Source of the DNA: an uncultured Lachnospiraceae bacterium
Lineage (GTDB): Bacteria > Bacillota > Clostridia > Lachnospirales > Lachnospiraceae
DNA: 56,089 bases
NCBI GenBank assembly: GCA_946403625.1
Contig: CAMJAP010000011.1
Coordinates: 1-56,089 of the forward strand
Reading direction: 5' to 3'
The notes beneath the pieces are model-generated. The model was not told the origin of the DNA. It saw only the letters and a list, made by a program, of their open reading frames with translations, and did not search any database. Positions 32,907 to 53,932 of this stretch are shown here, in pieces (positions within the stretch are counted from its first letter, which is position 1; the number at the start of each line of letters is the position of its first letter). A program made the position numbers and the translations under genes.

Positions 32907-33878
32907 ATGGATAAAGAGAACTATGATGCGCTTGTGGTAGTGACATCAAAAGATTTCGATCGTATGCATATGCATCACCGGCGGATCGCGGAAGATCTTC
33001 CTGTGCGAAGGGTTTTGTTCTGCGGAAATGAAGCAACCGGAAAAGCTTTGCAGCGCGAGATCGAAGAGGGTGTCTTCCGGGGCTGTGAAGACCGGGTTGG
33101 TTTTATTGCCGAAGACGAGATCCTATCCATTGCGGAGGTACGAAGTCTGTGGGAAAGCCTGGAAAGAGAATACCTGCCGGAAGAAGAACGAAATAAGGTA
33201 GGGGTGGGCTGGTATTATCAGCAGTTTATTAAATATGCGTATTCCTTTATTTGCAAAGACAGGTTTTATCTGGCCTGGGACGGGGATACGGTTCCTTGCA
33301 AAAAGTTTTCAATGTTTTCCGAAAACGGCGTTCCATATTTTGATTATAAGAGAGAAGTACACCAAGAGTATTTTGTTACTATGGAGAGATTGCTGGGACT
33401 GAAAAAAGTCATGGCGCCCTCATTTATTGCAGAACACATGCTTTTCCGGTGTGATATTGTTCAGGAGCTGCTTCGCGAGATCGAGGCGAATCCGCAGATC
33501 CGGGGGAGGATTTGGTGGGAAAAGATCCTTTATTCCATAAGACCGGAAAAACTGTTTCAAAACAGTTTCAGTGAGTTTGAAACCTATGGTACCTATACGG
33601 CACTGCGGCATTTGGATGAATACAGGCTGCGGGAGTGGCATTCCTTGCGTTACGCCGGTTTTTTCTTTGAGATCGATCAGGTGGAGGAAAAGGACTGGAT
33701 ATGGCTGGGAAAGGATTTTGGAGCCATCTCTTTTGAGAAGGGACATCAGGTCCGGCCGGATACCGCAAATCTGATGAATAATCCCAGATATCAGGAAAAA
33801 CTGAGTGCGCGTCAGGTGTTGGAGATCGTGCAGGAAGAGTTTGAAGAAGATAGTCTGCGTGAGATCTGGGATCAATAA
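32907..33878 (+). CDS. DUF6492-type putative glycosyltransferase (323 aa)
   Basis: A soluble protein that begins YDALVVVTSKDFDRM and holds GWYYQQFIKYAYSF (101-114), YLAWDGDTVPC (121-131) and later SFIAEHMLF. This arrangement matches the DUF6492 family as I know it; WDGDT looks like the metal-binding DxD of a GT-A fold, so a nucleotide-sugar transferase is the best guess. The same domain recurs in two fusions in this operon (43958 and 46854). It is the first gene of thirteen spaced by 10-40 bases after the flagellin gene. GGGGGGACGG precedes the ATG. Substrate unknown. Confidence 0.72.
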   Translation: MDKENYDALVVVTSKDFDRMHMHHRRIAEDLPVRRVLFCGNEATGKALQREIEEGVFRGCEDRVGFIAEDEILSIAEVRSLWESLEREYLPEEERNKVGVGWYYQQFIKYAYSFICKDRFYLAWDGDTVPCKKFSMFSENGVPYFDYKREVHQEYFVTMERLLGLKKVMAPSFIAEHMLFRCDIVQELLREIEANPQIRGRIWWEKILYSIRPEKLFQNSFSEFETYGTYTALRHLDEYRLREWHSLRYAGFFFEIDQVEEKDWIWLGKDFGAISFEKGHQVRPDTANLMNNPRYQEKLSARQVLEIVQEEFEEDSLREIWDQ

Positions 33879-33912
33879 TAACTACGGCAGATGCTTAAGT
33901 GAGGCAGAGATT

Positions 33913-36195
33913 ATGAAGTATTCCCGAGAGTTCTTTTATGATGAAGTAAAAGAAGGGTTTTATATCAGCAGCATAATGAAGAGCGTGAGAGCGGCACAGC
34001 TGGATGTACTGGATCAGATTGCTGCGGTATGCGAGAGGCATAATATCAAATGGTTTGCAGACTGCGGAACGCTGTTGGGAGCGGTTCGTCATGGGGGATA
34101 TATACCATGGGATGATGATCTGGACATTTGTATGCTCCGGGCGGATTATACACGCTTTCATCAGTATGTTCAGGACGAATTGCCCGAAGGCTATCTGGTT
34201 CGGACTCATGAGAATGGGGAACTCTGGCAGATCAAGTTGCACATTGTGAATCGCAGTAAGATGACGCTGGAAAGAAAAGAGTTTGAAGCGACACAGGGCT
34301 GTCCGTTTTGCACGGGCGTGGATATCTTTGTTTTGGATTATCTGGCACCCAACCCGGGTGAAGAAGAGGTACGGAAAAAACTGATCCAGTCGGCATTGGC
34401 GATCGCAGATAACGGCAGCGCGGAGGAGACCTTTACGGATGATGTGATGGAACTGCTGAAGATGGCTGAGGAAACATGCGGTGTTACGCTGGATCATAGC
34501 ACACATTTGCGAAGACAGATGTACGGACTGGCGGAAAAACTGGCAGCACTGTATCCGGAGGAAGGCGCCAAAGAAGTAGCGCTGATGCCATTCTGGTCTT
34601 ATTACAATACACACAGATATCCGATCGAGTGCGTAAATAATATTACACAGATTCCGTTTGAAGACCGTATGATCAATGTACCGGCGGGATATGATCAGGT
34701 GTTGAAGATCGAGTACGGGGATTACCTGCGTGTGGTGAGAGGCGGAGGAATGCATGATTATCCGATCTTTCAGAATCAGGTGGAAGAACTGGCAGCGATC
34801 GTAGAGATGCCGGATCTGTTTGAGTATATCTTTGACGAAAAGGATCTGATCACGGAGCGTGAGCCAAAGCCGCTGCGGTTACGGGAAAAAAGTTTAAAGA
34901 TCTGCGAACTGTTAGAACAGGTACAGAAGCATATCTCCGGGGCTATGGAGATGTTTTCGACCGAAGAAGTGATCACGATGCTGGAACAATGCCAGGATAG
35001 TGCGATTCAGATCGGAAATGAGATCGAGCAGACCTACGGGGAAGGGTTTGCTACGGTTTCGCATATCGAAAGATACTGCGAAAAACTGTATGAGATCTCA
35101 CAGATATTGTATGGTGAGGAAGGGGAACTTTCGGAAAGTCTGGGGAATTTGGCAGAAATACTCCGTAATATCCGTGGCAGTATTATGACTGATCTGCGGG
35201 ATCGGAAAACCATATTGTTTTTGCCGTTTCGTGACCGCTATTGGGATAGCTTTGCACCGATGTACCAAAAGGCGACGGAAGATCCGGACAATGATGTGTA
35301 TGTGATGCCGCTGCCGTATTATGACAGGGATTTTTTGGGCAAATTAGGCGACCTGCATTATGAGATTTCCGGTTATCCTAAGAATGTCAGACTGCTGGAT
35401 TACCGAAACTATGATATTAAAGAACACCATCCGGATGTGATCTATACCCAGTATGCTTATGATCTGTTCCATTTCAGCATCACATTGCCGTCGCAGTATT
35501 ATACTTCGGAATTGAAAAAGTATACGGAAGAATTGATCTATGTTCCGTACTTTAGGATCGGGGCGTTTGAAAACAGCGATGAGAAATTCCGTCAGACAAC
35601 ACGGTACTTTGTAAAGATACCGGGGCTGATGCATGCGGATAAAGTATTGGTGGAATCGGAGCAGATGCGGGATCTGTATATCAGCGAACTAACATCTTTT
35701 TGCGGAGAAGAAACCAAAGCAATCTGGGAGAAAAAGATCACGCAGTATACGGAGGAACAGACGGCGGATACCGATAAAAATTTGATTCCCGAGAAATGGA
35801 AAGCGCTGCTGTCGGATGCAAACGGAAAGAAGAAAAAAACAGTATTGTATATGGTAACAGTCAGTTCGCTGTACCGTTATCGCCGCCAAATGACGGAAAA
35901 GATCGAGCGTGTCTTACAGATGTTTTATGAACGGCGGGATCAGGTGGCCTTGGTATTTCACCCGCATCCCGCGATTCAATATTCCATGGATCTCTTTGAC
36001 CGGGATACTTGGCTGGATTATCAAAAGATCGTAGCGGAATACCGAAGAGCCGGCTGGGGCGTACTGGATGAAAGTGAAGATGCAACGGATGCGATCGCAG
36101 TTGCCGATGCGTATTACGGCGATGCGGATGTAGTGATGCATAAATGCAGGAATATGGGCAAACCGGTTATGATCGGAGATCCGATGATACCGTAG
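33913..36195 (+). CDS. LicD-TagF-like bifunctional phosphotransferase (760 aa)
   Basis: Residues about 1-330 are a LicD-family nucleotidyltransferase-fold domain with WFADCGTLLGAVRHGG (47-62) and IPWDDDLDICM (64-74); the DDD cluster is the metal site. LicD-like enzymes move phosphocholine, or in the related fukutins ribitol phosphate, onto sugars. After a helical linker, residues about 430-760 start RKTILFLPFRDRYWDS and hold YYTSELKKYTEELIYVPYF and, at the end, FHPHPA and ADAYYGDAD followed by GKPVMIGD, resembling the GT-B fold of CDP-glycerol glycerophosphotransferases (TagF). The start at 33913 fits family N-termini. It is nearly the twin of the 41660 gene, of the same length. The acceptor is probably a flagellin glycan, by position. 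Confidence 0.78.
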   Translation: MKYSREFFYDEVKEGFYISSIMKSVRAAQLDVLDQIAAVCERHNIKWFADCGTLLGAVRHGGYIPWDDDLDICMLRADYTRFHQYVQDELPEGYLVRTHENGELWQIKLHIVNRSKMTLERKEFEATQGCPFCTGVDIFVLDYLAPNPGEEEVRKKLIQSALAIADNGSAEETFTDDVMELLKMAEETCGVTLDHSTHLRRQMYGLAEKLAALYPEEGAKEVALMPFWSYYNTHRYPIECVNNITQIPFEDRMINVPAGYDQVLKIEYGDYLRVVRGGGMHDYPIFQNQVEELAAIVEMPDLFEYIFDEKDLITEREPKPLRLREKSLKICELLEQVQKHISGAMEMFSTEEVITMLEQCQDSAIQIGNEIEQTYGEGFATVSHIERYCEKLYEISQILYGEEGELSESLGNLAEILRNIRGSIMTDLRDRKTILFLPFRDRYWDSFAPMYQKATEDPDNDVYVMPLPYYDRDFLGKLGDLHYEISGYPKNVRLLDYRNYDIKEHHPDVIYTQYAYDLFHFSITLPSQYYTSELKKYTEELIYVPYFRIGAFENSDEKFRQTTRYFVKIPGLMHADKVLVESEQMRDLYISELTSFCGEETKAIWEKKITQYTEEQTADTDKNLIPEKWKALLSDANGKKKKTVLYMVTVSSLYRYRRQMTEKIERVLQMFYERRDQVALVFHPHPAIQYSMDLFDRDTWLDYQKIVAEYRRAGWGVLDESEDATDAIAVADAYYGDADVVMHKCRNMGKPVMIGDPMIP

Positions 36196-36213
36196 GGTGT
36201 GGGCAGGTGACGG

Positions 36214-37278
36214 ATGAAAAGTATAAGCGTGGTAATACCTTGTTATAATGCGGCAAACTATATCGATCGCTGTATGGATTCGGTGGTAGCGCAGACGATG
36301 GGATTGGACGGACTGGAGATCATTTTGGTCAATGATGCTTCTGCGGATGATACCATCGGTAAACTGCTGGAGTGGGAAGAGAAATATTCGGAGCAGGTGC
36401 TGGTGGTGGATTGCGAGGAGAATAACGGATGCGGAGGCGCCAGAAATGTCGGTATCCAATATGCATCCGGCGAATATCTCTTTTTCCTGGATGCCGATGA
36501 CTGGATCGAACCGGATGCATTGGAACAGCTGTTATTCTGTTCCGATGGCAACAGGTATGATATCGTCAGCGGAAAAATGATCTTTGACCGGCCGGATGAT
36601 CAGACCGATCTGCAGGAGATCCGAAACTATGAGGCGTTACATCGCTGTGATCAGAGGTATCAGGCGAAGAAGGTAAATGATCTGTATGTCTGGGAACAAA
36701 GGCGCATGAACGAGGGAAATGTCGGAGGAATGCCGACTTCCGTCGGCGCACTGTATCGGAGAAAAAGGATTATCGATCACGAATTGTTTTTCCCGGAGAA
36801 AGTAGATTATGAAGATAATTTCTGGAAAGATACACTGAAGATTTATTTCCCGAATATGTATGTGATGGATAAAGTGATCTACCATTATTGCTATAACGGG
36901 GATTCCATAACGCAAAAGCGCAATTCGATCAAACTGGATAATCGTCTGTTTATGGAATTGAATATTCTGGAATATTATAAGCAGACGGGAGCGTATGAAT
37001 ATTATCAGGAGGATCTGGAGAGTAATTTTATCCGGCGATTCTATCTAAATACGGTTTTTGTGATCTTCACCAATTATGATTATATTCCGGATATCATTAA
37101 TTATCTGCGAAAGACTGTAAAGAGACTGTTTCCGGATTATGAAAAAAGCTACCTTATGGATACGCTGAATGTAAGAGAACAGATGCTGATCCGCCTGCTG
37201 CAAACCGATGCGGATATAGAGATGGATGAAATGATAAAAATACGCTCGGAATATCTGCAACTGCTTCGGGCAGAATAG
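36214..37278 (+). CDS. Family 2 glycosyltransferase (354 aa)
   Basis: Classical GT2 start ISVVIPCYNAANYIDRCMDS, with EIILVNDASADDT (about 33-45), GGARNVGIQYASGEYLFFLDADDW (DxD near 92-95). The C-terminal 230 residues are helical and lack membrane segments, so it acts in the cytoplasm on a nucleotide sugar. It lies 18 bases after the LicD-TagF-like gene. The sugar cannot be told from the sequence. Confidence 0.85.
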   Translation: MKSISVVIPCYNAANYIDRCMDSVVAQTMGLDGLEIILVNDASADDTIGKLLEWEEKYSEQVLVVDCEENNGCGGARNVGIQYASGEYLFFLDADDWIEPDALEQLLFCSDGNRYDIVSGKMIFDRPDDQTDLQEIRNYEALHRCDQRYQAKKVNDLYVWEQRRMNEGNVGGMPTSVGALYRRKRIIDHELFFPEKVDYEDNFWKDTLKIYFPNMYVMDKVIYHYCYNGDSITQKRNSIKLDNRLFMELNILEYYKQTGAYEYYQEDLESNFIRRFYLNTVFVIFTNYDYIPDIINYLRKTVKRLFPDYEKSYLMDTLNVREQMLIRLLQTDADIEMDEMIKIRSEYLQLLRAE

Positions 37279-37292
37279 GAAGGAGAGGGATC

Positions 37293-38348
37293 GTGGAAAA
37301 CGGACCGGAAGAACTGTATCGCCGCATCGCAGCTTTGGAAGAAGAAAATGCACAGTTGCGTGACTGGCAAAAGCAGATGAATATGCTCTGCTCACAAATG
37401 CTGGATATGCTGGAAAAGCAGAAGACAGATCTGGAGGAAAAGAGCGGGAGGATGGAGGAACTGTGGAGGTTCGAATCGATCAATCGATGGCGGATCGACA
37501 GCCTTCCTTATGAGTTGCGGGATCCGGATTTTCAGCCGGAAGTATTTAAACCGCATTTTCTGACATCCCGGGAAACCAGAAGGCTGATCCGGGAGGAACA
37601 CCGATCCATTGCCAGACTGGGAGACGGTGAGTTTGCGGCGATCGCGGGAAGGCAGCGCTGGAATTTTCAGGGACAATCCGAGTTGCTGGGCAAACGGCTG
37701 AAGGAAGTCCTTCAAAGTAACCGGGAGGATCTGCTGATCGGATTGAATCCGACTTTTTATATGGATCTGAGCAGTCTGCCCGAATTGGATGCGGATGGAG
37801 TCAGAGCGTATATGCGCCCCGAAGTGCGCAGACAGCATGCGGCTTTGCTGGATCGTGATCGCTATTATGCGGATGCGCTTTTCCATAATATGTATTCGGA
37901 ACAGGATGTTGCAGAGATAAAGAGTATCTGGCAGGGACGGGATTGTGTCATCATCGAAGGCGTACATACCGGAAGCGGCGTAGGGAACGATCTGTTTGCA
38001 GGATGTCACAGTATAAAGCGTATCCTGTGTCCTGCGGAAAATGCGTTTGACCGTTATGATGAGATATTGAGTGTGGCTTCGGAACAGAGCAGGGACAGCC
38101 TGATGCTGCTGGCGTTGGGACCGACCGCTACGGTTCTGGCGTATGATCTGTGTTGCAGGGGGTATCAGGCAGTGGATATCGGGCATACGGATCTGATCTA
38201 TGAAAAATACCGAAGCGGGCTGCAGGACCTGTATCAGGTCAAGATACCGTATAAGTATTGCAGTGCGGATGAGCGGATCAAAGGCCGTGAGATACCGGGG
38301 ATCGAGGAGCCGGAGTATCTGCAGCAGGTGATCGCGCGTATCGTGTAG
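37293..38348 (+). CDS. GT-D-fold glycosyltransferase (DUF1792-like) with N-terminal coiled coil (351 aa)
   Basis: Starts with GTG after GGAAGGAGAGGG. Residues 5-60 form a heptad-rich coiled coil (LYRRIAALEEENAQLRDW). SIARLGDGEFAAI (105-117) is the hallmark of the GT-D fold described for streptococcal DUF1792 enzymes that add sugars to serine-rich repeat adhesins; DGE is the metal site. VIIEGVHTGSGVGNDLF and LLALGPTATVLAYDL further match the family. An enzyme type known to extend O-glycans on a surface protein fits a role on flagellin. The coiled coil may bring it to a partner in a complex. Confidence 0.8.
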   Translation: MENGPEELYRRIAALEEENAQLRDWQKQMNMLCSQMLDMLEKQKTDLEEKSGRMEELWRFESINRWRIDSLPYELRDPDFQPEVFKPHFLTSRETRRLIREEHRSIARLGDGEFAAIAGRQRWNFQGQSELLGKRLKEVLQSNREDLLIGLNPTFYMDLSSLPELDADGVRAYMRPEVRRQHAALLDRDRYYADALFHNMYSEQDVAEIKSIWQGRDCVIIEGVHTGSGVGNDLFAGCHSIKRILCPAENAFDRYDEILSVASEQSRDSLMLLALGPTATVLAYDLCCRGYQAVDIGHTDLIYEKYRSGLQDLYQVKIPYKYCSADERIKGREIPGIEEPEYLQQVIARIV

Positions 38349-38367
38349 AATTACGGGGGATGTGTTA

Positions 38368-39180
38368 TTGAGAAATGTAAGTGTGATCATACCGACCTAT
38401 AACAGAGCACAGCTGATCGGAAATGCTTTGAAAAGTGTTTTGCAACAAAAGGGTCAGGGGGAAACTTTTTGTATACAGGAAGTATTGATCATTGATGACG
38501 GATCGGTTGATGATACCGAGGCGGTTGTGCGTAAGTTTACGGATGAGCGGGTGCACTTTCATAAACTGGAGAAGAATGGCGGAGCCGGTCATGCCAGAAA
38601 TGCCGGGGCAGAACTGGCAAAGGGTGCATGGATCGCATTTCAGGACAGCGATGATCTGTGGGAAGAGAACAAATTGCAGACCCAGATGAAATACCTGGAG
38701 GAACATCCGGAGTGCTGTCTGGTAACACATCCGATCCGTGCGGAATTGAGCGGCGGGCGTGAGATCGTAACACAGATGCCCAAAGAGGAAGATCAGGTAA
38801 GTGTGCTGCTGGAGCGCAATTTTGCGGATACGCCGACGATGGTGATCCGACGCGATACCTTTTTGACACTGGGCGGATTTGATGAAAACCTGAGAGCATT
38901 GGAAGACTGGGATCTGGCGCTGCGTTTTGCGATGCAGGATCGGATCGGCATCGTTGATCAACCGCTGCTATGGGCAGATATGCGGATCGAAGGGGTATCA
39001 TCCAATATGGCAAATTATTATGACGCGCGTTGCAGGATGATCGGAAAGAATCGACAGGCATTGCAGGAAAGAGGATTGTTGAATACGGCAATGGAAAAAC
39101 TGCTGTTGCACGCACAGGAAAACGGTGTGTTGGAGCAGACCGGTAAAATGCTGGAACTGTATCTGACCGGTCTCGGATGA
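38368..39180 (+). CDS. Family 2 glycosyltransferase (270 aa)
   Basis: RNVSVIIPTYNRAQLIGNAL opens a GT2 domain, with VLIIDDGSVDDT and AFQDSDDLWEENKL (DxD). GGFDENLRALEDWDLALRF is the usual acceptor-side motif. GTG at 38362 and TTG at 38368 are in frame; TTG is better, since GGGGGA lies 7 bases upstream of it. No membrane segments. Donor unknown. Confidence 0.85.
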   Translation: MRNVSVIIPTYNRAQLIGNALKSVLQQKGQGETFCIQEVLIIDDGSVDDTEAVVRKFTDERVHFHKLEKNGGAGHARNAGAELAKGAWIAFQDSDDLWEENKLQTQMKYLEEHPECCLVTHPIRAELSGGREIVTQMPKEEDQVSVLLERNFADTPTMVIRRDTFLTLGGFDENLRALEDWDLALRFAMQDRIGIVDQPLLWADMRIEGVSSNMANYYDARCRMIGKNRQALQERGLLNTAMEKLLLHAQENGVLEQTGKMLELYLTGLG

Positions 39181-39195
39181 GAATAGGAAAAGTGT

Positions 39196-40185
39196 ATGGA
39201 TAATATTACGAAATTGCTTTTGCAGGCGTATGATCTGATCGAGCAGGACAAACAGGAAGAAGCCTATCAGTTGTTGATGCGGGAAACGCAGGAACATCCG
39301 GAATGGGTGGATGCGCGTTTTCAGGCTGAACTGCGTTTGCTCACCAGGCAAATGGAGAACCGGATGGCGCTAAACGAATTCGGTTTTTTGAGAAGCATCT
39401 CACTGGCCTATCGACTGTGTGAGACGGATTACAGTCAGGTTGGCCTTTCGGTAAAAGAACAAAGCGATATCGGAAACATCCTGCCGGAACGGGATACGAT
39501 CTGGTGGAGTTGGCTGCAGGGCCTTGAAAATGCTCCGGAGATCGTGCAGTGTTGTTATCGTTCCCTGGAAAAACTGGGCAAAAAGATCGTGATCCTGGAT
39601 GAGAATACGATGGCGGATTATGTCAGACTGCCGGAGTATATCGAAGCAAAATACCGTGACGGAAAGATCGGCAAAGCGCATTATGCGGATCTGGTACGAC
39701 TGGAATTGCTGACCACATACGGCGGATGCTGGATCGATGCAACGACATTTATATCCGGGACAAAACAGATATTGCCGGTACTGGAGAACGAAGATCTGTT
39801 TTTGTATCGTTCCGGAAATGTGAGCGAATATATCATTTTCGATAACTGGTTTATGCTGGCCAAACGCAAGAGCGCTATACTGGAAGCAACGAAGCAAATG
39901 CTGTTTGCTTTTTGGAAAAAGGAAGATAAGGTCAGTCACTATTATATCTTCCATTTGATGATGAGCATTGCGTGCAAGCAGTATACGCAGGAGTATGAGC
40001 AGATACCGGTGTTCAGTAACGAGCCGGCGCACATTCTTCAATATGAACTGGGCAAGGCATCGCTGGAAAAGCGCTGGGAGCAGATCCTGGCAATGAGTGA
40101 TGTGCATAAACTGACCTATAAACTGGAAGATACCAAGCAGGATGGAACTTTTCTGGGGGATATCCTGACAGGAAAAGTACAATAA
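39196..40185 (+). CDS. Caps_synth/GT32-like glycosyltransferase (329 aa)
   Basis: After about 90 helical residues come TIWWSWLQGLENAPEIVQCC (101-120) and HYADLVRLELLTTYGGCWID (162-181). The D-x(2)-R-x-x-x-L-x-x-x-GG-x-W-x-D string is the core of the capsular polysaccharide synthesis (Caps_synth) and GT32 families. It is a paralogue of the gene at 45854, same length and plan. It probably moves a sugar in the cytoplasm onto the same glycan. AGGAAAAG-type ribosome binding site, 15 bases after the preceding GT2. Confidence 0.82.
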   Translation: MDNITKLLLQAYDLIEQDKQEEAYQLLMRETQEHPEWVDARFQAELRLLTRQMENRMALNEFGFLRSISLAYRLCETDYSQVGLSVKEQSDIGNILPERDTIWWSWLQGLENAPEIVQCCYRSLEKLGKKIVILDENTMADYVRLPEYIEAKYRDGKIGKAHYADLVRLELLTTYGGCWIDATTFISGTKQILPVLENEDLFLYRSGNVSEYIIFDNWFMLAKRKSAILEATKQMLFAFWKKEDKVSHYYIFHLMMSIACKQYTQEYEQIPVFSNEPAHILQYELGKASLEKRWEQILAMSDVHKLTYKLEDTKQDGTFLGDILTGKVQ

Positions 40186-40220
40186 GCAGATTTGAAAGAA
40201 CATGTATTACGGGAGATCGG

Positions 40221-43942: not shown

Positions 43943-43957
43943 AAGAGGAGCGGATGT

Positions 43958-45814
43958 ATGATGAAACTGGTATCGCATATTCAGACGAAGGAGGATGCAC
44001 TGCTATGTCTTTGGAATGAGGTGGCAGAGTTCTTTTCGGGTACCGAGATCGGAGAAGTACAGTTTCTGAAAAGAGCTTCGGTAAGCGGGATCGATTCGGA
44101 ACATTTTTCCGATGCGGACCATGTGCTTGATTATGCCGAGGTGCATCGCCTTGTAAGTGCGCATAAAGATGCAGCCTTTTTGTCCGAAGCGGATATCCGG
44201 GAGACCGCAGACCGGTATTATGATGAATTCCTGAAGCTGGCTTATGCCAAAACTTGCGGGAACAACGAGTATCTGTTTTGGGATGCGAATACCGTTCCGT
44301 GCAGGTATCTTTCGCTTTTCGGAAAGCAGGATCTTACACTGCTGGATATACAAACGAAACCCGGAGAGGGCGAAGGTGCGGTGCTTGGGCGGCTGATCCC
44401 GGGATTGGAAAAAAAGATAACGAAAAGTTTTTCGACCGGGCATATGTTGATCCGCGGAGCGATCATGCGGGAGATCCTGGAGAAGATCGAAGCAAACGAT
44501 GTACTTGCGGGAGATACGGTCTGGGAAAAGATCCTGCGTGCAACGGAAGAAGGAATGCTTACCGCCAACGGGTTCAGTGCGTATGAACTGTACGGGAATT
44601 ATATGCTGGAATATTACCCGCAGGAATGTCTGTTGCGGGAGTGGAATACCTTCCGGCAGGGAGGGGATCTGCTGGAACTAAGCGAGCAGACCTTTTCGGA
44701 TCTGGAATGGATCGGCATGGATTTTGATTCGATCTGTTTTGAACGGGGGCATCTGGTACGGGAAGATAATAAAGGGCTGTTTACCAATCCGGAATACCGC
44801 AGGAAATTAAGACCGCTGCAGATGTTGCAGGCAGCGCAGGGAGAATATGCAGAGAAGCGGGCCGCAGAAAGGCTCGTGGAACCGCAGGCGGCGATCGCAG
44901 CGTACCGGGAGAAGAAAGCATTCGATGAATACCGTATGTATGAGGCGATCGGAGACGAACGGAAGGATACAAACCGGAAACAGGCGTGGCTTTCGTATCA
45001 GCATGCATGTTATCTGTGCAAGGACGCTTCGGAAAAACAGCGCTTATCGGAAAAGATGGATTCACTGCAAACAAGTGTTGCTCCGGCAGCGATCGTGATC
45101 GTATCCTACCAGTCGCAGAAACTGATCCGCGAGTGCCTGGAGAGTATACGCAGAACTTCCGGTGCGGATGAATACTCTATTATCGTCGTGGATAATGCAT
45201 CGACGGACGGGGCACGGGAATATCTTCAGAAACAAAACGATATCACGCTGGTCTGTAACGAAAAGAATGAGGGCTTTCCCAAGGCGTGCAATCAGGGCAT
45301 AGAAGTGGCGGCACCGGGAGAAGATATTTTCTTTCTGAATAACGATACGCGTATGACACACAATGCATTGTATTGGCTGCGCATGGGATTGTACGAATCG
45401 GAAGATACCGGAGCGGCGGGATGCGTCGGCAATTATGCCGGTGTAGGACAGATCGTCGAACTGATGCTGGCAACACCGGAGAGTTATACCGGCTATGCCT
45501 GTCTGCGAAATCAGCCGATGCAGGATCCGTATGCGGATGCAAAGATCCTCTGCGGATTTGCCATGCTGGTACGAAGAAGTGTGATCGATGCATACGGCGG
45601 AATGGACGAAGCATTTACGCCCGGTTATTATGAAGATACGGATCTGAGTCTGCGGATCCGTTCCAAGGGATACCGTCTACGGATTTGTCATAATAGTTTT
45701 ATCTATCATGCCGGCGGGCAGAGTTTCAACAAGAGAAAAGATCTGGATGAATTTACGGATCGGAATCTGCTTTTGCTGGTCAACCGCTGGGGAACGGATT
45801 TTATGGAACGATAA
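43958..45814 (+). CDS. DUF6492-like and GT2 fusion (618 aa)
   Basis: Residues about 1-300 resemble the DUF6492 domains of this operon: RYYDEFLKLAYA in place of GWYYQQFLKLEL, YLFWDANTVPC (105-115), and later SFSTGHMLIRG. The metal motif WDGDT is changed to WDANT, losing the second Asp, so this half may be inactive or altered. Residues about 370-618 form a GT2 domain (AAIVIVSYQSQKLIRECLES, IIVVDNASTDGARE, FFLNNDTRMTHNAL, PGYYEDTDLSLRIRSKGY) of the rhamnosyl-transferase-like type. The start could be 43958 or the next codon. The GT2 half should be active. Confidence 0.75.
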   Translation: MMKLVSHIQTKEDALLCLWNEVAEFFSGTEIGEVQFLKRASVSGIDSEHFSDADHVLDYAEVHRLVSAHKDAAFLSEADIRETADRYYDEFLKLAYAKTCGNNEYLFWDANTVPCRYLSLFGKQDLTLLDIQTKPGEGEGAVLGRLIPGLEKKITKSFSTGHMLIRGAIMREILEKIEANDVLAGDTVWEKILRATEEGMLTANGFSAYELYGNYMLEYYPQECLLREWNTFRQGGDLLELSEQTFSDLEWIGMDFDSICFERGHLVREDNKGLFTNPEYRRKLRPLQMLQAAQGEYAEKRAAERLVEPQAAIAAYREKKAFDEYRMYEAIGDERKDTNRKQAWLSYQHACYLCKDASEKQRLSEKMDSLQTSVAPAAIVIVSYQSQKLIRECLESIRRTSGADEYSIIVVDNASTDGAREYLQKQNDITLVCNEKNEGFPKACNQGIEVAAPGEDIFFLNNDTRMTHNALYWLRMGLYESEDTGAAGCVGNYAGVGQIVELMLATPESYTGYACLRNQPMQDPYADAKILCGFAMLVRRSVIDAYGGMDEAFTPGYYEDTDLSLRIRSKGYRLRICHNSFIYHAGGQSFNKRKDLDEFTDRNLLLLVNRWGTDFMER

Positions 45815-45853
45815 CGATCGGGGTATTGCAAATAATATTTTGCGGAGGGGTTC

Positions 45854-46843
45854 ATGAGTATTAACGAGAAGGTTGCAAATGTACTGTTGGAGGCGATGGA
45901 ACAGATCGACAGGGAAGATTACGGCTCGTTTGTATCTTCACTGAACCGGATGATGTCGGAGCATCCGGAAGCAGTGGATGCCAGGATGATCGCGGAATAC
46001 AAAATGATCGAGCGGCTGGTACAGTACAAAAAAGAACAGACCGAGTGGTATGATCTGAAAGCGACACGGTTGATCTACGAATATCTGGAAGATACTTACG
46101 CAAAGGATCTGCCGGAGTTTGCTGTCGGGAAGGGACTGCCGGATGCAGATGTGATCTGGTGCTGCTGGTTTCAGGGATTGGAGCAGGCACCGGAGGTTGT
46201 GAAAAAATGCATCGCATCACTGGAGCGATTCGGAAAGGAAGTCCGGATACTTACGGCAGATAATTTTTCGGAGTATGTAACGATGCCGGAATCCATGGTT
46301 CAAAAATGGAAGGAAGGCGTGATCAATAACACGCATTTTTCGGATCTGCTGCGTATCGAACTGCTGGCGGAAAGAGGCGGGCTTTGGATCGATGCGACGG
46401 TGTTCTGCTCCGACGCAACGGATATTTTGAGCGTGTTGGAGGGAACGGATCTGTTTGCGTATAGTTTTGTCATGCGTGTGGATCCGACCAAACATATTTT
46501 GTTTGACAGTTGGTTTTTGTATGCGCCCAAGAGCAATATCCTGATACAGGAAACCAGAGAAATGCTGCGCCGGTATTGGGAGAATGAAGACGGTCTGTTG
46601 CATTATTTCCTGTTCCATCTGTGTTTTTCAAATTGCTGCAGACGGCATTTGGATGCGTGGGCAGAGATCCCGGTATACAGTATGGAACCGTGTCATGTCC
46701 TGCAACAGGAAATGCTGGGACCCTATTCCGAAAAACGCTGGAGACAGATCATGAAGATGAGCGGGATCCATAAGCTGACTTACAAATATGATACAGATAC
46801 GGATGTCACAGGAAGTATGCTGGAACACTTATTGAGATCGTGA
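45854..46843 (+). CDS. Caps_synth/GT32-like glycosyltransferase, second copy (329 aa)
   Basis: A paralogue of the 39196 product with the same length: VIWCCWFQGLEQAPEVVKKC and HFSDLLRIELLAERGGLWID, then the same C-terminal PYSEKRWRQIMKMSGIHKL. AGGGG ribosome binding site. It precedes the Maf-DUF6492 gene by 10 bases. Two such paralogues in one operon suggest the glycan has two related linkages. Confidence 0.82.
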   Translation: MSINEKVANVLLEAMEQIDREDYGSFVSSLNRMMSEHPEAVDARMIAEYKMIERLVQYKKEQTEWYDLKATRLIYEYLEDTYAKDLPEFAVGKGLPDADVIWCCWFQGLEQAPEVVKKCIASLERFGKEVRILTADNFSEYVTMPESMVQKWKEGVINNTHFSDLLRIELLAERGGLWIDATVFCSDATDILSVLEGTDLFAYSFVMRVDPTKHILFDSWFLYAPKSNILIQETREMLRRYWENEDGLLHYFLFHLCFSNCCRRHLDAWAEIPVYSMEPCHVLQQEMLGPYSEKRWRQIMKMSGIHKLTYKYDTDTDVTGSMLEHLLRS

Positions 46844-46853
46844 GGTGCAGACT

Positions 46854-49361
46854 ATGGCAGAACAGTTTTTGGAAGAGATCTATGAGGATGCAATGATCAT
46901 CGAACAGATCCGGGAGTATGTGGAGTATACGCTGTCGGGAAGAGAGCGGGATGCAAGACGGATCTACAATCAGGCGGCACAGGGAATCGAGCGTATCCTG
47001 CCGGGGCTGCAGCAGGAACAGCCGCAACTGGCGGAGCAGATCGTTACGGCAGCGCTTGCGATCCGGGAGCATTTTGCGGATGTGTCCGACGCGGTAGCCA
47101 TCGCCGAGAGCAGGCTCCTTCCGGCATTGTTTTCGTATATGCAGTTCTTTACGGGGATCGAAGTGGAAGAGGGACTGTATTGTCTGAAGAGTGCGGACAG
47201 TGGTTTTTTGACGATACGGGATCTCGAGAGGAATATCACTTTGCACAGCACCTATGACCCGATGTGGGAGGCGTATGGTATCGCCCGTTCGGTTTTTGCG
47301 CCGGAAAAAGAATGCTATCATATCCTGGGGATGGGCCTGGGGTATCTGCCGTATCAGTTGTGGAATCTGTCGGAAGGTGCCGTTCGTCTGGTGATCTATG
47401 AAGAGGATCCGGTGATGATCGAATATGCAAAGGCATACGGTGTGCTGGACCGGATCGATGACAAATGTGTGGAGCTGGTGCATTGTGCGGATCCGAAGAA
47501 ACTGGCGGAAACTTTTCTGCAAAATATCGAAACGGCAAAAGATGCGGTAGTCTATATCTCACCGCAGAAGAAGGAGATCTATCGCAGTGTTTGTGACGGC
47601 AGAGTTGCAGTGGCGGCAGCCAATTATGAACTGGATCGCAGTATGCGGTGCCGCACGGCGATCAATCTGCGGATGAACAAACAGCATAAGCAGATCAGCT
47701 TTGCGCAGATAAAAGAACGCTTTGGTCAAAAAGAGTGGATCGTAGTATCAGCAGGACCTTCGCTGGACGATTCGCTGGAGTTTTTGCGAGAGAGGAAAGG
47801 TGAATACGGGATCATTGCGGTCAATACCGTGCTGCGCAGACTGTTTCGGGAAGGCATCCGTCCGGATCTGGTGGCGGCAGCAGATCAGTATGTGCAGATG
47901 CGGGAGCATATCGAAGGGATCGGCGAGCAGACGGATGGGATACCGCTGGTTGCGGAGCGACGGCTGAACTGGCAGTACCTGCAGCAGTACCGGGGACCGG
48001 TCTGCTTCGTGCGATCGGAGGATGAGGAGAATGCTTCGGAAGAGGTGTGGAGCTTCAGTGGCAGTGTAGCAGGACTTGCGCTGGAAACGGCAGTAAGACT
48101 GGGAGCGAAAAAGGTTTACCTGGTGGGGCAGGATCTGGCGTATCCGGATGGCAAGACCTATGCGGAAGGTATGCCGTATCACGCCGATGCGGAATCCAGA
48201 GGAACGGTATTGGTTCCGGCAGTGCACGGGGGGATGGTCCCGACCAGTGAGGCATTTTGCTGGTTTCGAATGGGACTGGAAGAACAGATCGCCCGCTATG
48301 ATCAGGTAGAGTTTTTTAATCTCTCAAAAAACGGTGCGTTGATCCGCGGCTGTAAAGAACTGCCGGAGGAAAGAAAAGAGCCGGCAGAAGAGCCGGTGTA
48401 TGATACCTATATCGTTATCACACCCAAGGATTTTGAACGACTGAAAACGCAGTACGGCTGGATGGTAAAAATGCTGCCGGGGGGCAGACTGATCTTTGTA
48501 GGCAGCAGCAGAGTCGGAGAACTGGTGGAAGAACTGGGACTGGGAGAACGCGTCGGTTTTCTGAACGAAGACAGCCTGTTGCCGTTCCGAAGCGTATGGG
48601 ATGTGCTCAACGACCATATGAGCGGTCTGCTGAACGGTGAGGAAGTTCCTCGACCGGCTGTGGGATGGTATTATCAGCAGTTTTTAAAACTGGAACTGGC
48701 GGAGCAATGTAACGGCGAGTATTACATGACCTGGGACGGAGATACCATTCCGTGCAGGCCGGTAAAGATGTTTGCCGAAGATGGCAGGCCGTATCTGGAC
48801 AATAAGAATGAGTATCATGAACTGTATTTTAAGACGATGGAAAAACTCATTCCGGGATTGCATAAAGTAGTGCGTTCCTCGTTTATTTCCGAGCACCTGA
48901 TGTTTCATGCACCGACGGTAAAAGAGCTGAAGGCGGCGATCGCGGCGAACGCGGCGCTGGAAGGAAAGAACTATTGGGAAAAGATACTGCGTGCGATCGA
49001 TCCGATGGAGATCCATCAGAGTGCGTTCAGTGAATTTGAAACTTACGGTACATTTGTAGCACTGCGGGATTCGGGAAGATACAAGATCCGCAACTGGCAT
49101 TCCTTCCGACTGGGCGGGGAATTCTTTGATCCCAATACCATTTGCGAAAGAGATTATGTATGGCTGGGGAAAGATTTTGACGCGATCTCTTTTGAAAAAG
49201 GACATAGCGTGAAAGAAGGCAACGGAAATCTGTTTGATAATCCGGAGTACCAGAAAAAAATGTCTGCCAGAAAGATGCTGGAGGTAGCGCAGGAAGGTGC
49301 CGGAGGCGGATACATCGAGAGCTGGGACGGATCCGCGGTAGGAACGGATCCGCTGGCGTAA
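46854..49361 (+). CDS. Maf (DUF115/MptE-like) flagellin-glycosylation protein fused to DUF6492 (835 aa)
   Basis: ATG at 46854 follows GAGGTG; a GTG at 46845 is also in frame. Residues about 10-505 read as a motility accessory factor of the Maf/DUF115 family: HILGMGLGYLPYQLWNL (about 156-172), EWIVVSAGPSLDDSLEFLRE (294-313) and IAVNTVLRRLFREGIRPDLV (321-340), ending FFNLSKNGALIRG. Maf proteins transfer nonulosonic acids or other sugars to flagellin Ser/Thr in the cytoplasm. From about 515 a complete DUF6492 domain follows, with VGWYYQQFLKLEL and MTWDGDTIPC (near 626). This joins the enzyme that probably starts or caps the flagellin glycan to a second transferase. It is the strongest link between the operon and flagellin. 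No sialic- or pseudaminic-acid synthesis genes are in the window. Confidence 0.82.
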   Translation: MAEQFLEEIYEDAMIIEQIREYVEYTLSGRERDARRIYNQAAQGIERILPGLQQEQPQLAEQIVTAALAIREHFADVSDAVAIAESRLLPALFSYMQFFTGIEVEEGLYCLKSADSGFLTIRDLERNITLHSTYDPMWEAYGIARSVFAPEKECYHILGMGLGYLPYQLWNLSEGAVRLVIYEEDPVMIEYAKAYGVLDRIDDKCVELVHCADPKKLAETFLQNIETAKDAVVYISPQKKEIYRSVCDGRVAVAAANYELDRSMRCRTAINLRMNKQHKQISFAQIKERFGQKEWIVVSAGPSLDDSLEFLRERKGEYGIIAVNTVLRRLFREGIRPDLVAAADQYVQMREHIEGIGEQTDGIPLVAERRLNWQYLQQYRGPVCFVRSEDEENASEEVWSFSGSVAGLALETAVRLGAKKVYLVGQDLAYPDGKTYAEGMPYHADAESRGTVLVPAVHGGMVPTSEAFCWFRMGLEEQIARYDQVEFFNLSKNGALIRGCKELPEERKEPAEEPVYDTYIVITPKDFERLKTQYGWMVKMLPGGRLIFVGSSRVGELVEELGLGERVGFLNEDSLLPFRSVWDVLNDHMSGLLNGEEVPRPAVGWYYQQFLKLELAEQCNGEYYMTWDGDTIPCRPVKMFAEDGRPYLDNKNEYHELYFKTMEKLIPGLHKVVRSSFISEHLMFHAPTVKELKAAIAANAALEGKNYWEKILRAIDPMEIHQSAFSEFETYGTFVALRDSGRYKIRNWHSFRLGGEFFDPNTICERDYVWLGKDFDAISFEKGHSVKEGNGNLFDNPEYQKKMSARKMLEVAQEGAGGGYIESWDGSAVGTDPLA

Positions 49362-49376
49362 GAGGGCTGTTGGGTA

Positions 49377-50564
49377 ATGAATATTCTGGTGATGGACTGG
49401 CCGGCATTTGGCAGCGAAACAATGAAACGGACACTTGCGGAACTGGGGCATACCGTGTCGGTATTTGATTTTCCCTATGACAGTCCGGAAGTAAAAAACG
49501 GAGAGGATCTTTGCAGGCGGATCGCAGAACGGATCTTGCAGGATGCTGCGGATATCGTCTTTTCATTCAATTATTTTCCGGTGATCGCAACGGCGGTGTA
49601 TGCGTGCAGAAAAAAATATGTTTCCTGGGTGTATGACAGCCCGGCGATCCATCTGTACTCCATGACGGTTTTTTTGGAGACAAATCATATCTTCCATTTT
49701 GATTCTCACGAGGCAGAGCGGATGAAGAGGGAGGGCGTACCGCATGTTTATTATCTGCCGCTGGCGGCCGATACAGAGGCGTATGACCGGATCGTACCGG
49801 GTGAGGAACACAAAAGAAAGTATGCAGCCGAGGTTGCGATGCTTGGCTCGTTATACAGCGAGAAGTATGGCTATTTTGATAAATACGCCCGTTTTGACGA
49901 ATATATCAAGGGATTTCTGGATGGCGTAGTGAATGCGCAGGAGCAGATCCATGGCGTGAACTTTTTGGAACAGACGCTGACGCAGGATATCATGGAACGA
50001 TTGCTCAGGACCGTTCCTTTGATCGCGGAAAAAGAGGATAGTTACGATACCCCGGCGTGGGTGTTTGCCAATTACTATCTGGCGATGCGGGTGACGGAGC
50101 AGGAACGCAGACGGATGCTGGAGAAGATGGCGGAGCATTATGATGTGGCGCTGTATACCGGAAGTGATGCGAGCGGCCTGCGGAATGTCAGAAATATGGG
50201 CAGTGTGGAATATTACCGGGAAGCACCCTACGCCATCAAATGTGCCAAGATCCATCTGAATGTGACACTGCGCAGTATTCAAAAAGGCATCCCGCTGCGG
50301 ATCCTGGATATCATGGGTTGCGGCGGTTTTGTGCTGTCGAACTATCAGGAGGATCTGTGCAGCGAGTTCGTACCGGATGAGGATTTTGTTTATTACGAAA
50401 GTATGGAAGATGCGGTAGAGAAGGCAGGGTATTATCTGGAACATGAGGATGAGCGCCGGCGCATTGCGGAGAACGGTTATCGTAAGGTGAAGGAGTATCA
50501 CAATTTCAAACAGAAGTGTTGTCAGATCCTGCAGATGATACAGAGTGCAGACGGAATGGTTTGA
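49377..50564 (+). CDS. CgeB/DUF3880-type glycosyltransferase (395 aa)
   Basis: A GT-B-like protein. The N-terminal half has MNILVMDWPAFGSETMKRTL, DIVFSFNYFPVIA and YVSWVYDSPAIHLYS, as in DUF3880. The C-terminal half has APYAIKCAKIHLNVTLRSIQ, GIPLRILDIMGCGGFVLSNY and ERRRIAENGYRKV, the glycosyltransferase family 1-like end of CgeB-type proteins. It lies 15 bases after the Maf fusion gene. Similar genes occur beside flagellin and spore-coat glycosylation genes in Firmicutes. Donor unknown. Confidence 0.82.
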   Translation: MNILVMDWPAFGSETMKRTLAELGHTVSVFDFPYDSPEVKNGEDLCRRIAERILQDAADIVFSFNYFPVIATAVYACRKKYVSWVYDSPAIHLYSMTVFLETNHIFHFDSHEAERMKREGVPHVYYLPLAADTEAYDRIVPGEEHKRKYAAEVAMLGSLYSEKYGYFDKYARFDEYIKGFLDGVVNAQEQIHGVNFLEQTLTQDIMERLLRTVPLIAEKEDSYDTPAWVFANYYLAMRVTEQERRRMLEKMAEHYDVALYTGSDASGLRNVRNMGSVEYYREAPYAIKCAKIHLNVTLRSIQKGIPLRILDIMGCGGFVLSNYQEDLCSEFVPDEDFVYYESMEDAVEKAGYYLEHEDERRRIAENGYRKVKEYHNFKQKCCQILQMIQSADGMV

Positions 50565-50575
50565 GGCGGAAATAT

Positions 50576-52525
50576 ATGTCGGAGTTTTCGGTAGATGATT
50601 TCAGGGATGAAGTGCGCTGCGGTTTTTATATCCCGACTGCGGTAAAACAGGCATGGGCAGCCGAATTGGAAGTGCTGGCCGAGATCGACAGGATCTGCGA
50701 GAAACACGGGATCCGTTATTTTGCTGACTGGGGAACGATACTCGGGGCGGTGCGTCATGGCGGATTTGTGCCATGGGATGACGATCTGGATGTCTGTATG
50801 CTGCGGGATGATTATATCCGTTTCCGACAGGTGGCGGATGCGGAACTGCCGCAGGACTATGTGATCCATGATTATGCTCGACAGGAAGATCACTGGCTTT
50901 TCCTGGCGCGCGTCGTGAATCATCAAAAGATCTGCTTTGCACCGGAGTATCTGAATGCACATCACAATTTTCCGTGGCTGGTGGGCGTGGATATCTTTGT
51001 AAAAGATTATCTGTATGAAGATCCTGTGAAAGAAAAAGAACGGGATGATGAGATCATGCATATTCTGGCAGTTGCGGACGGGATCGTTGCAGGTAGTATA
51101 AAAACAGAGACCGTTGCGCAGTGGCTGCAGAAGTTTCGTGAGAAGTATGGGTTTCAAATGGTTGCGGAATCGGATCCGAGACAGCAGGGGATCGCTCTCT
51201 ATCGTCTGGCAGAAGAGCAGATGGCGCGGGTAGCTCCGGAAGAAACCGATACAATAGGACAGATCTTTCCGTTTATTCTGAAGGGCGGACAGGGACAACC
51301 GAAGAAGTATTATGAAGATATCCTGCGGATTCCGTTTGAGAATACGACGATCCCGGTGCCGGCGAGTTATGATACGATCCTGCGCAGCCGATACGGTGAT
51401 TATCTGAAGATCCACAAGGTGTGGGGCGGCCATGGTTATCCGTTTTTTGAAGGACAGAAGGCGGAACTGCTTTCCCATGCGGATTTTGCTTTCCCGGAAT
51501 ATCGGTTTGACCGCAGTCTTATGCAGGCGAGGGATGTATCGGCGTGGCAGCAGCCGCATCGCAGGAAGGTGCTGTTTTTGGCAGCAGGACCGATGTGGTG
51601 GGAAGGACTGGCGGACCGGTATCGGCAGGAAAGGGAACAGCCGGATACCGATGTGGTAGTGATTGCGTTGCCGGTGCTGTTTAAGAACTGCTGCGGAGAG
51701 ATCGCGGCATCCGATGCGGAACTGGCATCCGCGGCGCGGGAGAGTGAATATCCGGAAGATCTGATCATGGCGGCCTGGTATGATGTTCAGATCGAGAAGG
51801 AACTGCCGGATCGCGTGTATATCCAGGATGTATATGACGGGGAGAATCCGTGCCTTTGCATTCCGCCCATGTTTTATGCATCCTATGTGCGAAACTATAC
51901 GAAAGAACTGATCCTGATGCCGCCGTTCTGTGCGGATGATTTCGGACCACAGGATCGTAATGATGTGTACGGAATGAAACACTATGTGACCTCGCCGGGC
52001 GTGGCTTGTGCGGACCGGGTGCTGCTGCAGAGCGAGACGATACGACAACGCTATCTGGAAGCGCTCACGGATTGGGCAGGAGAGGACACACGGGCGTATT
52101 GGGAGCATAAGCTGCAGGTACCGGACAGGAAAAAGGAGAAAATCTCTGACCGACAGGCAACAGAAAAAAAGACGATCCTCTTTATGATCGGTGCCAATGA
52201 GGCGGCGGAATATAAAGAACGGGCTGCGGATCTGCTGCAAAAGAAGCTGGATGTTTTGCAGGAAAAGGCAGATACTCTGGATGTTTTGATCAGTCTGTAT
52301 CCACCGGAGCCGGAAGCCTGGGAGCTGTGTCTTAAGGAGGTTGCACAGTCGTTTTTGGCGCAGGTTGAAAAAGCGCTCGACCGGTGCGGCTACTGTGACC
52401 TGCGGGAAAACAGTACCCGCGAGATCGTATCGGAATGCGATGCCTATTACGGCAGTGCATCCCCTTTGGTTGTCGAATTTGTGCGGGCCGGAAAGCCGGT
52501 TATGATCGCAGATTATAAATGTTAA
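50576..52525 (+). CDS. LicD-TagF-like phosphotransferase, short form (649 aa)
   Basis: The fourth LicD-type protein. YFADWGTILGAVRHGG and VPWDDDLDVCM are near the N-terminus. From about 345 a TagF-like region starts RKVLFLAAGPMWWEG, with FYASYVRNYTKELILMPPF, and ends CDAYYGSASPLVVEFVRAGK. It is 111 residues shorter than the 760-residue pair, mostly by loss of the helical linker, and the HPHP motif of the pair is not evident (SLYPPEPEAW instead). ATG at 50576 is chosen from family N-termini; GAGGCGG precedes it. It is the last gene of the operon. Confidence 0.75.
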   Translation: MSEFSVDDFRDEVRCGFYIPTAVKQAWAAELEVLAEIDRICEKHGIRYFADWGTILGAVRHGGFVPWDDDLDVCMLRDDYIRFRQVADAELPQDYVIHDYARQEDHWLFLARVVNHQKICFAPEYLNAHHNFPWLVGVDIFVKDYLYEDPVKEKERDDEIMHILAVADGIVAGSIKTETVAQWLQKFREKYGFQMVAESDPRQQGIALYRLAEEQMARVAPEETDTIGQIFPFILKGGQGQPKKYYEDILRIPFENTTIPVPASYDTILRSRYGDYLKIHKVWGGHGYPFFEGQKAELLSHADFAFPEYRFDRSLMQARDVSAWQQPHRRKVLFLAAGPMWWEGLADRYRQEREQPDTDVVVIALPVLFKNCCGEIAASDAELASAARESEYPEDLIMAAWYDVQIEKELPDRVYIQDVYDGENPCLCIPPMFYASYVRNYTKELILMPPFCADDFGPQDRNDVYGMKHYVTSPGVACADRVLLQSETIRQRYLEALTDWAGEDTRAYWEHKLQVPDRKKEKISDRQATEKKTILFMIGANEAAEYKERAADLLQKKLDVLQEKADTLDVLISLYPPEPEAWELCLKEVAQSFLAQVEKALDRCGYCDLRENSTREIVSECDAYYGSASPLVVEFVRAGKPVMIADYKC

Positions 52526-52582
52526 TGAATAATAACATTTTGCCCAAAGCGTATGGGGGATTTTGGACAGTATGCCGAAAGC

Positions 52583-52613
52583 GGGCGGATGTCACGAATC
52601 ATCATAGCCGCCC
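52583..52613. repeat. Inverted repeat before the flagellin-like gene
   Basis: GGGCGG (52583-52588) and CCGCCC (52608-52613) pair across 19 bases, next to the palindrome CCCGGCCGGG (52611-52620). No T run follows. It may be a weak terminator of the glycosylation operon or an operator close to the promoter at 52628. Confidence 0.35.
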
Positions 52614-53869: not shown

Positions 53870-53932
53870 AAATTTATTATTTATTTTTTGGAGTAGTTTT
53901 CATTATAACCCGGTGCCATGGAGGGTGACTGT

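Follow-up and report, generated by a model that had tools for sequence, protein, structure and literature searches.

A thirteen-gene operon between flagellin genes of an uncultured Lachnospiraceae bacterium: a likely flagellin glycosylation locus with a possible LicD-added pentitol phosphate

The window analysed here is contig CAMJAP010000011.1 of an uncultured Lachnospiraceae bacterium at its entire length (it ends at position 56089); the genome comprises 3.5 Mb in 195 contigs and is 99% complete. The region 32907-52525 of the window is filled by 13 open reading frames (ORFs) on the + strand, which lie between flagellin genes and likely constitute a flagellin glycosylation operon. The glycan probably carries phosphate-type substituents, and pentitol phosphate is, at about even odds, the best single guess for the main one. 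The explanation as a whole, namely that LicD-type phosphotransferases add pentitol phosphate from CDP-pentitol to a flagellin glycan, is given a probability of about 0.5. A preliminary description of this DNA had reported thirteen same-strand genes, spaced by at most 39 bases, between flagellin genes, and both the ORFs and the Pfam flagellin matches agreed with it. The Maf domain, the two Caps_synth-type transferases, the GT2, GT-D and CgeB-type enzymes and the four LicD proteins named in it were all recovered as Pfam matches over the cut-off. The genes are as follows:

Gene 1, 32907..33878, + strand: DUF6492 (Pfam); predicted GT-A fold nearest GlcNAc-1-phosphotransferase and CpsY
Gene 2, 33913..36195, + strand: LicD, helical linker and TagF-like GT-B domain, 760 amino acids (aa); PF04991 133 bits
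Gene 3, 36214..37278, + strand: GT2 glycosyltransferase; PF00535 118 bits
Gene 4, 37293..38348, + strand: GT-D fold glycosyltransferase; PF08759 205 bits
Gene 5, 38362..39180, + strand: GT2 glycosyltransferase; PF00535 112 bits
Gene 6, 39196..40185, + strand: Caps_synth-type transferase; PF05704 223 bits
Gene 7, 40221..41663, + strand: LicD protein with a shorter C-terminus, 480 aa; PF04991 120 bits
Gene 8, 41660..43942, + strand: LicD, linker and TagF-like GT-B domain, 760 aa
Gene 9, 43958..45814, + strand: DUF6492-like N-terminus, followed by GT2; PF00535 66.6 bits
Gene 10, 45854..46843, + strand: Caps_synth-type transferase; PF05704 244 bits
Gene 11, 46845..49361, + strand: Maf/MptE-like domain fused to DUF6492; PF01973 107 bits, PF20102 37.5 bits
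Gene 12, 49377..50564, + strand: CgeB-type glycosyltransferase; PF13524 (Glyco_trans_1_2) 91 bits, PF12996 (DUF3880) 66.5 bits
Gene 13, 50576..52525, + strand: LicD and TagF-like domain, 649 aa; PF04991 109 bits

The successive gaps between genes 1 and 13 were 34, 18, 14, 13, 15, 35, -4, 15, 39, 1, 15 and 11 bases, values that depend on the ATG starts chosen (gene 2 at 33913, gene 13 at 50576), and the operon begins 136 bases after the nearest upstream flagellin, with the next flagellin gene 270 bases past its end. In a metagenome-assembled genome from sheep rumen (Lachnospiraceae bacterium RGIG6658, locus L115), the segment corresponding to window 38215-53938 was kept in the same order with 98.5% identity. 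Two genomes of the same genus (G132 and G134) contained LicD genes whose frame lengths equal or nearly equal those of the window, and genes sharing a contig there were spaced as in the window. The near-identical copy, together with these two matching genomes, indicates that the gene arrangement is not due to chance.

To assess the cellular site of the encoded enzymes, the 13 proteins were scanned for hydropathy. The maxima ranged from 0.81 to 1.77, compared with 2.4-3.2 for three membrane controls; genes 4 and 13 were borderline, and no clear membrane protein was found among the 13. No flippase, polymerase, ABC exporter or initiating phosphotransferase was matched by Pfam in these genes. The lack of both a clear membrane protein and a recognised export or polymerase gene fits cytosolic protein glycosylation, and Maf glycosylation is described as occurring in the cytosol (PMC4065374). 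The Maf-containing gene 11 scored 55.8 bits against the NCBIfam PseD model, far under its cut-off of 670. Two matches to NeuB (nonulosonic acid synthase), of 233 and 105 bits, were found on other contigs of the genome, the 105-bit match being cut by a contig end.

The LicD family (PF04991) was matched by genes 2, 7, 8 and 13 with 109-133 bits, over a cut-off of 22.6. The motif PWDDDxD was invariant in all four proteins of the window and in all 25 LicD sequences aligned. No further LicD gene was found elsewhere in the 3.5-Mb genome, so that all four are located in the operon; genes 2 and 8 share 54% identity. The LicD domain, modelled with high confidence, had a predicted structure matching the fold of human FKRP, which is a CDP-ribitol-dependent phosphotransferase (PMC4873967).

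Three LicD proteins had been proposed to carry a TagF-like partner. Kinship with TagF could be traced only through a PF04464 member of locus L139, which aligned with gene 8 at 31% identity over 336 aa (E 2e-47) and on which the label rests; neither gene 2 nor gene 8 matched PF04464 itself at E<=10 in its C-terminal part. At this threshold, the C-terminal part of gene 8 matched no family, and that of gene 2 gave a single irrelevant weak match. The SDYSS motif was absent from the C-terminal half in 35 of 35 LicD fusions (among them two identical sequences and a near copy of gene 8), and the HP motif (read by eye) was kept in 8 of the 35, including gene 2 but not gene 13. The loss of SDYSS in all 35 fusions makes catalysis by the TagF-like half doubtful. 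An active second phosphotransferase in this half, as implied by the preliminary description, was therefore not upheld, with SDYSS lost and gene 13 also without HP; a working CDP-glycerol polymerase is disfavoured on the same grounds, there being neither a PF04464 match nor SDYSS. In predicted structure, the C-terminal domain was similar in fold to UDP-GlcNAc 2-epimerase. TagF was missing from the 50 matches listed for the whole fusion in each of two fold comparisons, a result that says nothing on kinship.

The preliminary description had also counted three DUF6492 domains. Those of genes 1 and 11 were matched by Pfam over the cut-off, and the third was weaker: the N-terminus of gene 9 had no match to Pfam DUF6492 at E 0.01 and was related to gene 1 by BLAST only (36% over 250 aa, E 3e-48, for the near-identical L115 copy). 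In the model of gene 1, the one DUF6492 protein compared by fold, the structure resembled a GT-A fold, nearest to the Stealth-type sugar-1-phosphotransferases GNPTAB and CpsY. Based on this predicted fold, DUF6492, a Pfam family without an assigned function, may be regarded as a candidate phosphotransferase. Sequence kinship with the Stealth enzymes was considered and rejected: no Stealth model was among the families matched by nine DUF6492 members scanned at E<=10, and no DUF6492 match was found to PDB sequences at E<=10.

The association of LicD genes with flagella was surveyed in 120 Lachnospiraceae genomes representing 119 genera (P values treat the genomes as independent). The preliminary description had named homologous operons lying regularly away from flagellin genes as evidence against its reading; on this point the outcome was mixed and differed by frame length. 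LicD genes overall showed no association with flagella, 39 of 76 genomes with LicD being flagellated compared with 23 of 44 others (p=1.0). Among the matches listed, LicD frames of >=690 aa were confined to flagellated genomes (10/10 vs 52/110, p=0.0014). Distances were counted for the 89 LicD genes listed for flagellated genomes, and the counts near flagellin are lower bounds: at least 9 of 13 frames of >=690 aa lay within 10 kb of a flagellin (0.22 expected; two of the nine are those of this window), at least 3 of 11 in the 440-689 aa class (0.19 expected; this window supplies two of the three) and at least 5 of 65 shorter frames (0.84 expected).

A second survey covered 35 genomes of the same genus, all flagellated and fragmented; it excluded the flagellins of LicD-free genomes and any Flagellin_N match scoring about 75 bits or lower. 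Most of these low-scoring matches are in frames of about 500-550 aa that probably encode hook-associated proteins. Here, 24 of 74 LicD genes were found within 10 kb of a flagellin (1.1 expected). When the three genomes with this operon type were removed, 17 of 63 remained near flagellin (0.96 expected), comprising 6/17 of the frames of 440-689 aa and 9/33 of the shorter ones. Among the named loci, which are the best 80 of 571 confirmed, ranked by likeness to gene 8 and counting L115, a flagellin was present on 8/31 loci with a frame of >=690 aa, on 14/20 with 440-689 aa and on only 4/29 with shorter frames; L041 and L085 and, putatively, L042 and L116 are duplicate contigs. The order FliD, FlgN, LicD fusion and flagellin was observed in late flagellar clusters of L084, L085 and L119, and in L040 with the trio described below in between. 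LicD fusions next to or near flagellin were also seen in Oribacterium sp. P6A1 (L093), Butyrivibrio sp. XPD2006 (L113) and Butyrivibrio sp. NC2007 (L102). Flagellin linkage of LicD fusions is thus recurrent in Lachnospiraceae and is not confined to the longest frames. Together with the location in the operon of all LicD genes found in the genome and the lack of a clear membrane protein, this linkage supports the earlier proposal of a flagellin glycosylation operon with LicD-type phosphotransferases.

As to the donor, a LicD gene in loci L040 and L048 was directly followed by a trio of genes for ribulose-phosphate 3-epimerase (RPE), an IspD/TarI-type cytidylyltransferase and a TarJ-type zinc alcohol dehydrogenase, and in L043 the same trio stood one gene further 3' of LicD. 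The trio was named by Pfam in L040, at the family level only by TarI/TarJ NCBIfam models in L048, and by similarity or reading in the rest. Steps of the TarI/TarJ pathway convert a pentulose 5-phosphate to a CDP-pentitol, and the trio is expected, from its sequence families, to make a CDP-pentitol, whose pentitol could be ribitol or an isomer. The genome of the window contains two IspD-family genes, of which the 208-bit one was taken as housekeeping and the other belongs to such a trio:

Contig C34 (locus L058), 5900-8333, same genome as the window: RPE-TarI-TarJ trio, then a CgeB-type gene

PDB matches of this TarI and TarJ include ribitol enzymes, with ISPD among those of TarI. In the family survey, trio-type TarI separated cleanly, with 18 of 120 genomes at >=237 bits and the next at 142; 17 of these 18 genomes were flagellated compared with 45 of 102 others (p=5e-5). 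Among the matches listed, trio-type TarI co-occurred with LicD frames of >=690 aa (7/10 vs 11/110 genomes, p=5e-5), also within flagellated genomes alone (7/10 vs 10/52, p=0.003). Of the 31 loci whose LicD frame has >=690 aa, 12 carried a trio gene, compared with none of the 49 others (p=2e-6, best 80 of 571); all three trio genes were found in L084, L087 and L105, two in L088 and one in the other eight. The association is not fully independent, as the trio queries were taken partly from the LicD-fusion loci L043 and L048. In loci L041 and L085, which carry a LicD-fusion flagellar cluster, two tandem IspD-type cytidylyltransferases of another type were noted upstream of FliD (L041 5743-7187), possibly for a different CDP-alcohol.

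Relatives of gene 13 (>=55% identity) had a trio gene on 9 of 13 loci (8/12 without L048) compared with 8 of 100 other loci, a set containing duplicates, and a flagellin on 2 of 13. For genes 2 and 8, relatives of full length (>=34%) had a flagellin on 7 of 14 loci, a count in which one contig is counted twice and one locus is a near copy of the window; L115 is excluded from the first two counts in this comparison. In the window, two LicD lineages occur together that are more often found apart. The frequent position of gene-13 relatives beside trio genes makes gene 13 the best candidate for pentitol-phosphate transfer. Three groups, phosphocholine, phosphoglycerol and phosphoribitol, had been proposed; the trio in the genome, with no choline kinase match and no gene read as TagD, favours ribitol (or another pentitol) phosphate among them and disfavours the other two.

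We infer the donor, the acceptor, the order of steps and flagellin as the carrier as follows. The operon would be a flagellin glycosylation island whose enzymes act in the cytosol while flagellin has yet to be exported. The first sugar, a nonulosonic acid by analogy, would be placed on Ser/Thr of flagellin by the Maf domain of gene 11, with chain elongation by the GT2, GT-D, CgeB-type and Caps_synth-type enzymes. Pentitol 5-phosphate would pass from CDP-pentitol, putatively supplied by the C34 trio of the same genome, to glycan hydroxyls through the action of LicD proteins, namely gene 13 at the least and probably also genes 2 and 8. In its fullest form, a Lachnospiraceae flagellin O-glycan would receive pentitol phosphate through FKRP-like LicD proteins and an ISPD/TarI-like synthase as well as sugar-1-phosphates through DUF6492, with up to seven phosphotransfer domains, a possibility that we put forward tentatively and well short of even odds.

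The features flanking the operon are as follows:

31943..32770, + strand: flagellin 1, 275 aa with N and C domains, the likely substrate; PF00669 144 bits, PF00700 95 bits
32795..32850, + strand: terminator-like hairpin, -25 kcal/mol, z -5.8, 0/200 shuffles as good
52796..53569, + strand: short flagellin-like protein; PF00669 102 bits, no PF00700 match
53918..55933, + strand: large flagellin, 671 aa; PF00669 134.5 bits, PF00700 78 bits

The large flagellin has a central insert of about 445 aa with 19.6% Ser+Thr, which is not above flagellin 1 (20.0%). In G134, a match equal in score and frame length to the short flagellin-like protein was found beside LicD genes. The sequence TAAG-N16-CCGATA in 31640-31943, 5' of flagellin 1, resembles a sigma-D promoter by eye. 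Over the whole window, a scan with the sigma-D-type consensus gave no signal (21 matches vs 18.8 expected). An Rfam scan of 28000-56089 gave no match.

Several observations weigh against the proposed explanation. The strong hairpin between flagellin 1 and gene 1, which was not flagged by a terminator scan, suggests that transcription of the operon may be separate from that of flagellin 1. In the genus set without the three genomes with this operon type, only 2 of 13 long frames (>=690 aa) were near flagellin, and the P values of the family survey assume independent genomes. Among the 80 loci, frames of 440-689 aa had a flagellin on 14/20 and a trio gene on 0/20, so that trio and flagellin linkage fall partly on different LicD proteins; likewise, gene-13-type loci with a trio gene had a flagellin in 1 of 9 within the stretch examined. 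In genome G003, of the same genus, no LicD gene shares a contig with a listed flagellin, though CgeB-type genes and a relative of DUF6492 with 50% identity to gene 1 were found near its flagellins (L061, L062). The C34 trio itself is away from flagellin; its neighbours are a CgeB-type gene and a Wzy_C match that does not reach the cut-off, and four PF04464 matches elsewhere in the genome (23-48 bits, partial, cut-off 22) could be users of CDP-pentitol. Finally, the C34 TarI scored 118 bits against an NCBIfam ribitol cut-off of 166, its TarJ was below all NCBIfam cut-offs shown, and the best two PDB matches of TarI carry IspD-type names.

Among the alternatives, the main one, which we still consider unlikely, retains a modified flagellin but takes the LicD donors to be wholly or partly CMP-2-aminoethylphosphonate, and the four LicD proteins may differ in donor. 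The preliminary description had considered neither this donor nor the fold of DUF6492. The relevant genes of the same genome are on another contig:

Contig C13 (locus L163), 5971-9119, same genome as the window: aminoethylphosphonate pathway

The 2-aminoethylphosphonate aminotransferase PhnW-AepZ (465 bits, cut-off 361) and a phosphoenolpyruvate (PEP) mutase (403 bits, cut-off 320) were identified here; the mutase has an N-terminal cytidylyltransferase-like domain, and an NTP transferase gene adjoins. LicD-like phosphotransferases have been described in genomic neighbourhoods encoding aminoethylphosphonate production (PMC6697681). However, the C13 genes are away from flagellin in the stretch read, and the long LicD frames track the pentitol trio. 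The next gene on C13 (9271-10407) reads by eye as a phosphonopyruvate decarboxylase.

It is improbable that the operon makes a surface polysaccharide or teichoic-like polymer and stands between flagellin genes by chance or through shared regulation. It is chiefly in cell-wall and capsule loci that the LicD and Caps_synth families are known, flagellated genomes show no association with the LicD family taken as a whole, and the hairpin separates the operon from flagellin 1. Yet the 13 genes offer neither a Pfam-recognised export, polymerase or initiating enzyme nor a clearly hydrophobic segment, and the Maf domain, the recurrent linkage of LicD fusions to flagellin and the FliD-FlgN-LicD-flagellin orders in relatives speak against this reading.

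It appears quite improbable that the flagellin glycan lacks stable phosphodiesters and is the work of the sugar transferases only, LicD having another or a degenerate role: the loss of SDYSS and frequent loss of HP in the TagF-like halves suggest that part of these proteins may be non-catalytic, but the LicD motif is invariant in 25/25 sequences and the LicD fold was modelled with high confidence. Transfer of phosphocholine or phosphoglycerol is very improbable, as no choline kinase (PF01633) match at E<=0.001 was found in the genome and none of its five PF01467 genes was read as TagD (four by eye, the one on C13 at 32 bits vs a cut-off of 165), even though known LicD enzymes transfer phosphocholine (PMC539331) and the sole NCBIfam match of genes 8 and 13 was a cholinephosphotransferase, far below the cut-off (44-59 vs 225 bits).

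Elsewhere in the window, a type IV pilus or type II secretion-like cluster is located at 10542-28573, upstream of topA and codY, with T2SSE ATPases, T2SSF, a prepilin peptidase, PilM and N_methyl pilin-like proteins. The region 1471-10391 contains large proteins reading as membrane proteins, with a YfhO match in 7707-10391.

Flagellins of gut Lachnospiraceae are immune antigens (cf. PMC11285207). If LicD-dependent modification with pentitol phosphate holds, the glycan would form an anionic, teichoic-like coat on the filament, with possible effects on how host receptors, antibodies and phages recognise it, and the LicD/CDP-ribitol chemistry of human dystroglycan would also act on a bacterial protein. 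Gene-specific predictions follow for gene 13 and the C34 trio.

The preliminary description knew of no such system. For LicD in a flagellin island this stood, with no report found in open-licence papers (top listings, titles and abstracts): open-licence literature on LicD, flagellin and glycosylation gave only the Campylobacter lic genes, which have another role, and no described glycan for gut Lachnospiraceae flagellins was met there. Flagellin phosphodiester glycans and ribitol islands, in contrast, were already known. C. difficile flagellin carries GlcNAc-phospho-N-methylthreonine, and a phosphodiester has been described for that of P. aeruginosa (PMC4441256, PMC10714395), and the Enterobacteriaceae flagellin glycosylation island type 12 contains ribitol biosynthesis genes in two strains (PMC4875605, whose main text has 0 occurrences of LicD). 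Maf-type islands of Aeromonas and Clostridium share with the window a Maf domain beside flagellin, and NeuB is encoded in the window's genome; the window differs in that NeuB is on other contigs and in its four LicD and three DUF6492 domains. LicD likewise has 0 occurrences in the main text of a Clostridium survey of 2026 (PMC13317340). Teichoic acid and capsule loci for phosphoribitol or phosphocholine (TarI/TarJ, LicD) use the same families for donor synthesis and transfer, whereas the LicD genes of the window belong to a flagellin locus in which no polymer export genes were recognised.

The type A cluster of C. difficile 630 (CD0240-CD0244) is likewise flagellin-linked and clostridial, and makes a phosphodiester-bearing O-glycan. 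Its CD0244 is TagF-like and also resembles UDP-GlcNAc 2-epimerase (PMC10714395), as the C-terminal domain of the window proteins does by fold; the likeness is one of description and fold. LicD is absent from the main texts of PMC4441256 and PMC10714395, and the donor proposed there is CDP-threonine. The window operon differs in having no Pfam phosphatase or cytidylyltransferase match, 13 genes, and TagF-like domains without SDYSS. In Bacillus sinesaloumensis (L139, 7077-16689), a flagellin cluster was observed with a GT2-like gene, a TagF-like transferase with intact SDYSS, LicD, an aminotransferase, two NTP transferases, a HAD phosphatase and two methyltransferases (the last read by eye); it resembles the C. 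difficile type A cluster with LicD added.

The ISPD-FKTN-FKRP pathway on alpha-dystroglycan combines an IspD-family CDP-ribitol synthase with LicD-family transferases acting on a protein-bound O-glycan (PMC4873967). It is eukaryotic and builds another glycan, whereas the window proteins carry a TagF-like half and have a predicted activity; the enzyme families are homologous and the parallel is one of functional analogy, which does not prove that the product is the same. What the two have in common is the predicted FKRP fold of the LicD domain and the presence of ISPD among the PDB matches of TarI.

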